NCBI RefSeq assembly: GCF_040436345.1
Contig: NC_133234.1
Span: 13,284,446 to 13,348,445, forward strand
DNA length: 64,000 nt
Direction: 5' to 3'
Source: Pagrus major
Lineage: Eukaryota; Chordata; Actinopteri; Spariformes; Sparidae
Every line of letters starts with the position of its first letter. The stretch's first letter is position 1. This document shows, in pieces, positions 19,001 to 22,000 of this stretch. Under the pieces are notes generated by a model. That model saw only the letters and a program-made list of their open reading frames with translations, ran no database searches and had not been told where the DNA came from. A program made the position numbers and the translations under genes.

Positions 19001-22000
19001 GCAGAACAACACTAATCTGTGTCACCAGTTTTCTGTCGTAGAAATCCATCATGAATACTCCTCACTCCCCACAGGAGACCTCCCGTTCCCCATTGAGAAG
19101 TGGTCCAAGTCAGCTGCTGAGGTGAAGAACTGGGACGACTGGCTTCCCATGCAGGGGGACCTCACTCCACGTCTGGATGCCATCTTGTCCGGGGCCAACA
19201 TGACAACCCTTTGGAAGAACGTCAGCAGGCCGAGGCCGGACGACTCCGACCTGCATGAATCTTTATGGCGGATTCAGAGCGAGTTCCTCTCTCGAGTTCT
19301 CACAGTCGGGCTGGGCGTGCAACACTTCGCCCTCGACCCCTACGCTAAGCCGCTCACTATCCACATAGCAGGGGCATCCCACAATGAAACCATGGGAGCC
19401 AGACTGACCGACTATGACGAGCTGAACAACATGTTCCCCGGACACCAGGGTATCGAGATAGTCATGGTGGGACCGGAGGTGGTGGACGGCCCCATCGTGA
19501 GGCCTCCTCTGAGGGCGTTCGGGCCCAAGAAGAACGTCTACATCAGCGCCTACAAGGGCCTCTACCACCAGTTCTGGGAAGATGTGGTGGAGAAAGAAGA
19601 AGGAGCGAAGCCAGATTTGGTGGTTGGTTTTCATCCTGGTATGTACATACATCATCCTGCCGAACGTGAACAAACAAATGTAAAAGACGTGACTGCACTA
19701 AAATCTTCGGCACAGGTCTGGTTTTTCCCCTCAAAGTGCCTTTAACTCAACCAGTAATGATGACTGCATCTATAAATAGAAACTGCTCAGCTTAAGTGGT
19801 CAGCTGTCTCAGAGAACCAGTGGCTTGTCTCCCTTTATGCTTGTTGGACAATCACCTCTTTCAGAGAACAGAGTGAGCAGGAGACGTATAACTCACTGGA
19901 TCTGGCCTATTCATTAGCGCCGGGCTTTTATTGGGGATTTGGGTGATTAATGGGAGCAGCTGGGAGAGAGTTTGGCTTCTGATCGCTGGACTCAGCACAA
20001 TGTCAGTAAGCTGCCCTTTGGAAAGTCTCAGCTCTCCTCGGTTTCACTCTGACAAACATCGCAGGCTGCAGTCGTGCGCAAAACCACTTATTTAGAACAA
20101 TCTCACCATCCCTGTCCCCTTTATCAGTCTAAGGACGTACAATGCTCTGACCTAATGAATCATTTCAACAGACAGAAAGTCTCGACATCTGTCCCTTTGT
20201 CCAGTGGCGGACTCGGGATGTTTGAAGTGCGGGGGGCGAGTAAATACAAAGGGCACTACATGTATGCAGGGGGGCAGAAAGTTGTGATTTAGGCCTATTT
20301 ATAGTGAAGAGAGGCCTCTTCACCACGTTCTGTCCACCGTAGAGGGCACTTTATAACGTTAATCTATCATAGGAGCATCCAAGAGTCAAACAATGCATTT
20401 GTCCACTCTCACTGACAACCACCTCATTAAAGTGGCACTGTAACCCCGCGCCCACTAAGCTCTCGCGCTGAATCAGTTCTCCGACCCTTTGACCCGCAAA
20501 GCAGCAGTAAAGCCCCCGACCCAACCTCATCCACAACCCTCAGCTCGGTTATCACTGCAGGCTCCACTGGAGCTAAATATACAGGAATCAGTCATCCTGC
20601 AAGTAAACTGCCTGAGTGCCTGGCTGCGTTTCATACCGCAAAGCTGGCAGAGTGCTGCATTATGACACCGTCTAGTGATACAGAAGCAGGCGGCATGACA
20701 AAAGGAGTAAAAAGGAAGGTGTGTGTGTGTGTGAAAGTCACAAAGACAACAAGAACGAGAGAGGGAAACGCTGCCAGGAGCGTGAAAAACAGACACCGGC
20801 CTCGGAGAATAAGGGCAGCCGTCAGTTCTCACAAAGGAAAATGGATGTTATTCATACAAGGCGCCTCAAAAACACAAACGCAGCATCCGCATTACTTTTT
20901 AATATCCTCGGAATAAACTGCATTATTCTGAAACCTATTTGTCAGACCAGGAAACAAAGTCTATTAGCATTAACCGCAACTTTATCCACTGTACGGCCCA
21001 AATTCACACCGGAGCCAGGCAATTATTCCAGTCATTAAGAGTCAGACTATAACGTCTCTTTGTCACCTTATCTCCTCAGGGCCTGAACACCTAAACGCTT
21101 ACTCCCTGTTAAATGTTTTATCATGATGAGGAGTGTAACCTCGGGGATGTCGGTGTCAGGGCGTGCATTATTCAAATGAAAATCCTCTCTTTCTGCAGTC
21201 CCGGAAAAGACAGGCTGCGGATAACATGATACCATCTGCGTGGCAGTATCACAAGCCGAACAATACTCTGTGGCATGCTCCGAGGGCCCCCCGACACACT
21301 TACAACCAGCGAACGCACCGCTCAGAACGCACCAAACAGCTGAAGCTTTGATAAATTCATAGCTTACTCTCATATTTCTCACATGCGTTGTTTTTCCCTA
21401 GGTGCTGATTAAAATTTCATCTGATTACACGGACGAGCTAATAATGTGGGACTTTTTTCCGATCAGCGCGGAGGAATTCTCGGTTACGCCGCACTACCGG
21501 TTATGTCTCACTCAAGGACACTTAAGCTGGATGGATCGACAGTGTTTGCGGTGGCGTGAACCTCAGTCATGTGGTTGAAGGTTGAGCTGTTCACCACACC
21601 ACCCTGCTGCTCAGAAAGAAAAAAAAACATACTAATAATACAAAGCAGAGTCAGGGGAAAGTGACATCTGTCAGTTAATATGCTGCAGGATTATGTACCC
21701 AAACCAGCCTCTGCAGAGGAATGTTATCAGCTTTCTCTGGTCCAGCTGAGTTTTTCGACGAGGTCGGCGTGTTTGGAGGAAGATTAACTTTGTCACATTG
21801 ACTGATAATTTGTCAGACTGCTAAACAATGACAGTGACATGTTCGGGAGGAGGGATATTCGACCTAACAAGAGGAAGACGCGGGCAGCTTGAGACTAATC
21901 AGGCGTAATCTATTTGATTTTCACCACTAGAGACTCGTACGGTGGGAAACAGACAGCTCAGTAAGGTTTATCTTCTGTCAGTGTCATTCAGCTGAATTAT

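Follow-up and report, generated by a model that had tools for sequence, protein, structure and literature searches.

Two MSS51-like genes that lie in tandem in the window, the whole 64,000-base stretch of DNA analysed here, are strongly diverged from each other along most of their coding sequence and agree almost letter for letter over a short part of a single exon. How can two old paralogues share such a patch, and which process would have left it in place? The original prediction read it as a recent gene conversion of about 150 bases between old paralogues. From comparison of the two copies, we consider it very probable (roughly 85%) that the patch arose by non-allelic (interlocus) gene conversion between the two tandem genes, with a tract of about 160–230 bases.

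The MSS51-like gene pair

Gene models were built by eye and by script. MSS51-like copy A spans 16083–24000 on the plus strand and comprises six coding exons (16083–16240, 16388–16537, 18653–18777, 19075–19638, 23018–23111 and 23793–24000) encoding 432 amino acids, while for MSS51-like copy B, at 28522–31341 on the plus strand, five coding exons were found (28522–28671, 28773–28897, 29018–29581, 29717–29810 and 31137–31341). The copies form a tandem with a spacing of about 10 kb and a common orientation, and are the only two MSS51-like copies seen in the window. A search for the first coding exon of copy B (tblastn, exon 1 of copy A as query against 19641–28500) gave weak matches, none of them convincing; the start of copy B may differ, or its exon 1 may have diverged.

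The MSS51 label holds for both copies, because zf-MYND and MSS51_C score above the curated Pfam cut-offs in both joined proteins, with 96.1 bits for MSS51_C and 43.5 bits for zf-MYND in copy A and 101 and 45.8 bits in copy B. Both proteins carry the MYND finger followed by MSS51_C, the order by which the MSS51 (ZMYND17) family is recognised. Exon 4, which is 564 bases long in each copy according to splice sites and frame (19075–19638 in copy A, 29018–29581 in copy B, both on the plus strand), matches MSS51_C with 52.7 bits in copy A, where it holds the start of the domain, and with 60.8 bits in copy B. A comparison of exon 4 of both copies with NCBIfam returned a single match (E 0.052), which falls well short of the cut-off and was judged to be chance, and the 27 distinct sequences of solved structures found with copy A alone all match the MYND finger region. 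Among the titles listed for MSS51/ZMYND17 in zebrafish or other fish, none concerned conversion in these genes, which leaves absence from print unproven. Scans of the microbial and viral collections viral_contigs, genome_contigs and phages brought up no relative, in keeping with what such collections contain.

Extent of the near-identical patch

In a base-by-base recount, the core of the patch, 19419–19568 in copy A and 29362–29511 in copy B, differs at 3 of 150 bases, with 28 differences in the 90 bases 5' of it and 13 in the 70 bases 3' of it. These counts are exactly those of the original prediction, which had also correctly placed core and flanks within one exon and described the differences as mostly silent or conservative: those at 19469 (Val) and 19520 (Phe) are silent and that at 19531 exchanges Lys and Arg. 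The length of about 150 bases did not stand, since a two-breakpoint likelihood fit placed the homogenised tract at 19389–19579 in copy A and, at a constant offset of 9943 bases, at 29332–29522 in copy B (both plus strand), with 7 differences in 191 bases. Within two log units, the tract starts between 19385 and 19408 and ends between 19567 and 19612; the fit gains 40.5 in likelihood, compared to a largest gain of 9.9 among 500 shuffles of sites and of 15.2 among 500 shuffles of codon blocks. The extension to the left of the core, 19389–19418, holds three more differences between the copies.

Outside the tract, the 5' flank within exon 4 (19075–19388) differs at 116 of 314 sites, corresponding to 63% identity, and the 3' flank (19569–19638) at 13 of 70, corresponding to 81%. 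Exact matches run over 52, 50 and 37 bases inside the tract, compared to 13 bases or fewer elsewhere in exon 4. No other converted stretch was seen in exons 2, 3, 5 and 6, where the longest exact runs are 7, 10, 10 and 14 bases (in exon 6 with the one-codon gap left out of the comparison). The copies align in their exons: in a blastn comparison of copy A with copy B, no same-strand match between introns was judged convincing, and the matches outside exons consisted of one short inverted match and two rows at E 0.25 to 0.86.

The dimensions of the tract bear on two trivial or indirect origins. Its length is about that of a short sequencing read, as would be expected if assembly or polishing had pasted the sequence of one exon over the other; however, the copies retain the three differences in the core and the three in 19389–19418, the window is without any N, and the strongly diverged flanks would presumably anchor reads that cross the edges, so that we regard such an artefact as scarcely credible. 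Confinement to one exon is likewise compatible with a spliced template, that is, with one copy having received the cDNA of the other, and a third MSS51-like copy, unseen here, might have donated to both. We consider this pair of sources very unlikely, as only two copies are found in the window and a neighbour in the same orientation 10 kb away is the simplest donor.

Silent-site divergence

Of the 378 aligned codons of exons 2–6, 247 specify one and the same degenerate amino acid in copies A and B. The codon itself is identical in 45 of 47 such cases in the tract and in 97 of 200 outside it (Fisher 1.6e-10), and the distinction is retained within exon 4 alone, where 36 of 85 are identical outside the tract (Fisher 1.4e-10). 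A best-segment score, calculated with two mismatch penalties, was equalled in none of 20,000 permutations, while the longest uninterrupted run (18 codons), a weaker statistic than the best-segment score, was equalled in 74 of 20,000 permutations over all exons and in 79 of 20,000 over exon 4 alone. The patch thus displays two of the features by which conversion tracts are recognised, namely high identity that includes silent sites and is flanked by diverged paralogous sequence, and identity beyond the permutation expectation in the best-segment as well as the longest-run test.

Counted as silent changes, divergence amounts to 2.0 over 34.2 sites in 19419–19566, compared to 69.8 over 85.3 sites in the part of exon 4 outside 19389–19566, where the resulting proportion of 0.818 lies beyond Jukes-Cantor correction. 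The corresponding proportions in exons 2, 3, 5 and 6 are 0.81, 0.80, 0.67 and 0.63. Four-fold sites (Ala, Gly, Pro, Thr, Val) match at 19 of 20 positions in the tract and at 13 of 48 outside 19389–19568, and replacement differences fall in parallel, with pN 0.009 in the tract and 0.198 in the remaining exon. Outside 19389–19568, 91 of 192 degenerate codons are identical, where full saturation would leave 72.4; the pair is therefore old, near but not at saturation. The abrupt loss of silent differences within an otherwise near-saturated gene pair is what is observed directly at this locus.

We additionally considered whether graded edges would prove earlier and larger conversions, and rejected this reading, the silent-site tests falling short of significance. 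At silent sites, the left edge compares with the 5' flank at P 0.053 and with the tract at P 0.097, and the 3' flank with the 5' flank at P 0.29 and with the tract at P 6e-5. When all sites are counted, divergence is lower in the 3' than in the 5' flank (13/70 against 116/314, P 0.003), which can be explained by protein conservation. An excess of transitions in the tract (5/6 against 63/129) was not significant (P 0.21).

Protein constraint, codon bias and selection on the nucleotide sequence

That selection on the protein alone would be insufficient, as had been argued originally, is borne out by our data. Silent sites are affected as well, and per residue the MSS51_C model gives the tract a lower score than the stretch next to it: in copy A, the tract contributes 19.1 bits over 52 residues, compared to 56.1 bits over the following 87 residues. 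Nonetheless, the two copies share 50 of 52 residues in the Pfam stretch of the tract and 63 of 87 in the next stretch. Protein constraint was therefore rejected as a sufficient cause, since the weaker-scoring tract is more alike than the stronger-scoring neighbour and silent sites are affected too. Codon bias was rejected in the same manner, as the third-base mix of the tract predicts 24.4 identical codons out of 47 where 45 are seen (P 2.5e-12), and the codon mix of the tract in copy A for each amino acid predicts 32.5 (P 2.1e-7).

GC content at third positions (GC3) is raised in 19389–19568 in both copies, with 48/57 in copy A compared to 209/304 elsewhere (P 0.017) and 46/57 in copy B compared to 178/302 elsewhere (P 0.0017). 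Such a shift would be expected from biased repair as well as from a GC-rich donor. A GC3-rich tract in both copies is also in line with the DNA or RNA sequence itself being selected in both genes, for instance because an exonic enhancer, an RNA structure, a splicing signal or an overlapping gene lies there, and two copies alone cannot separate constraint of this type from conversion. Such constraint would need to have frozen 45 of 47 degenerate codons directly beside near-saturated silent sites. Folding of the tract RNA of copy A is ordinary (z -0.34, with 71 of 200 shuffles folding as well), Rfam gave no match at gathering score across the window, and synonymous shuffling produced reverse-strand frames as long as the longest in exon 4, which extend past both ends of the tract, in 357 of 1000 cases for copy A and 88 of 1000 for copy B. 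While an enhancer or splicing signal of an unlisted kind is compatible with the tests run, we consider selection on the nucleotide sequence unlikely.

Probable gene conversion, its direction and its age

Conversion between old paralogues is, as originally proposed, the best-supported explanation, because almost all differences, silent as well as replacement, are lost within sharp limits in a pair whose silent sites are otherwise near saturation. We infer the repair event itself, its direction and the choice between one and several events from this pattern. In the proposed mechanism, one copy would have suffered a break in exon 4 that was repaired on the template of exon 4 of the other copy; the templated repair would replace silent and replacement differences alike, and it would halt where the sequences become too dissimilar for pairing. 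The length of the tract counts in favour of conversion, since it fits the range of 50–200 bases towards which surviving conversion tracts cluster in Caenorhabditis (PMC3966223). Read in this way, the case is a clean display of an ordinary, already known process.

In third-base composition, the 54 codons that the copies share in the tract fit copy A better than copy B by 5.3 log units. For overlapping blocks of 58 codons taken from beyond the tract, the corresponding value runs from -7.0 to 2.7 in copy B and from -4.0 to 6.7 in copy A. Since 5.3 lies outside the range of the B blocks and inside that of the A blocks, the composition leans towards copy A as donor and copy B as recipient, and hence towards a putative transfer from the upstream to the downstream gene. 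The test is a weak one, and the composition signal could also stem from GC-biased repair.

The attribute "recent" in the original prediction is to be read with caution, as the silent divergence of the tract, dS 0.061 (95% interval 0.007–0.248), rests on two silent differences. If silent sites change at about 4e-9 per site and year, this dS would correspond to approximately 8 million years, with an interval of about 1 to 30.

One event or repeated conversion

The proposal of a single event is strained by the 63% identity of the 5' flank. Most gene conversion occurs at identities above 80%, with a low rate at lower identity, according to a review (PMC3924818), a human study removed sequences under 88% identity, with the conversion rate there likely negligible (PMC3790853), and for the mouse, a further review gives identity lengths of 132–232 bases as estimated to be necessary (PMC3758752). 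Relative to the range cited in these papers, the 5' flank is well below and the 3' flank at the edge of the identity at which most conversion is placed. Upon resampling codons from the flanks of exon 4 (20,000 draws), the median longest exact match was 11 bases per 180, and a match of 26 or more bases occurred in such 180-base stretches with a probability of 0.00135. With flanks this diverged and a median match of 11 bases, a single event starting from a fully diverged state would therefore have had scant identity to begin from.

Repeated conversion of a surviving similar patch plausibly fits the two sequences as well as a single conversion does. In its strongest form, the patch would be a refuge of concerted evolution, in which copies A and B have converted each other repeatedly since soon after duplication; we regard this form as possible, though somewhat doubtful. 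The identity of the patch would then permit each next conversion, while the remaining gene would have diverged beyond the point at which conversion can start. If so, the patch is expected to persist for as long as the genes are neighbours and to be present in other fish with different letters.

Under either course of events, the pair stands as a clear candidate for paralogue conversion with flanks that do not exceed the identity usually taken as the limit, and it bears on the question whether small patches of this type are single accidents or are maintained by repeated conversion. Dates of the duplication or trees derived from exon 4 would be misleading unless the tract is omitted.

Comparison with known systems

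A close likeness is found in the red-opsin pair LWSa/LWSb of medaka, also tandem fish paralogues that are homogenised in part with an unconverted part adjoining, for which at least two non-allelic gene conversions are described (PMC6389941). There, conversion covers the second to sixth exon including introns, whereas the MSS51 tract comprises about 180 bases of one exon, and the medaka case was shown with a sister species, whereas ours is known from the two copies of one genome. Short conversion between adjacent paralogues is likewise described, in C. elegans, for fog-2/ftr-1 (PMC3966223), where it included a region of 77% identity beside an identical stretch of 70–72 bases. In contrast to the MSS51 tract, which is deduced from sequence, that conversion was observed directly, in natural isolates as well as in experimental lines, and with 82% overall identity and 28% silent divergence fog-2/ftr-1 is far less diverged than the MSS51 pair. 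The GENECONV tracks in human segmental duplications resemble our tract in being short and in showing unusually long identity between paralogues; that study left out sequences under 88% identity (PMC3790853), while the tract described here has flanks of 63% and 81%.

Further features of the window

At 22357–22873, intron 4 of copy A contains about 8.5 tandem copies of a 61-base unit, and the segment 20327–20385 of this intron forms an inverted match with the intergenic segment 25609–25664 (blastn, 81% over 59 columns, E 9e-7). Nine other open frames were scanned, of which two COG7 and two ubiquitin-hydrolase (UCH) frames scored above cut-off, one MARVEL frame below it, and four had no match. 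The MARVEL match (26.8 bits, curated cut-off 32.8) belongs to 31956–32810, which together with the unmatched 34706–35686 forms a neighbouring pair of long, membrane-protein-like open frames on the minus strand, with 28% identity across 274 aligned residues. On the plus strand, COG7 exons at 39922–42727 and UCH exons at 48820–53788 lie downstream, the latter of a ubiquitin hydrolase which we take to resemble USP31. A dispersed repeat family with 85–97% identity, perhaps a mobile element, occurs at 1936–2218, 39500–39782 and 49710–50126 and includes an inverted pair at 49741–49827 and 49895–49981.
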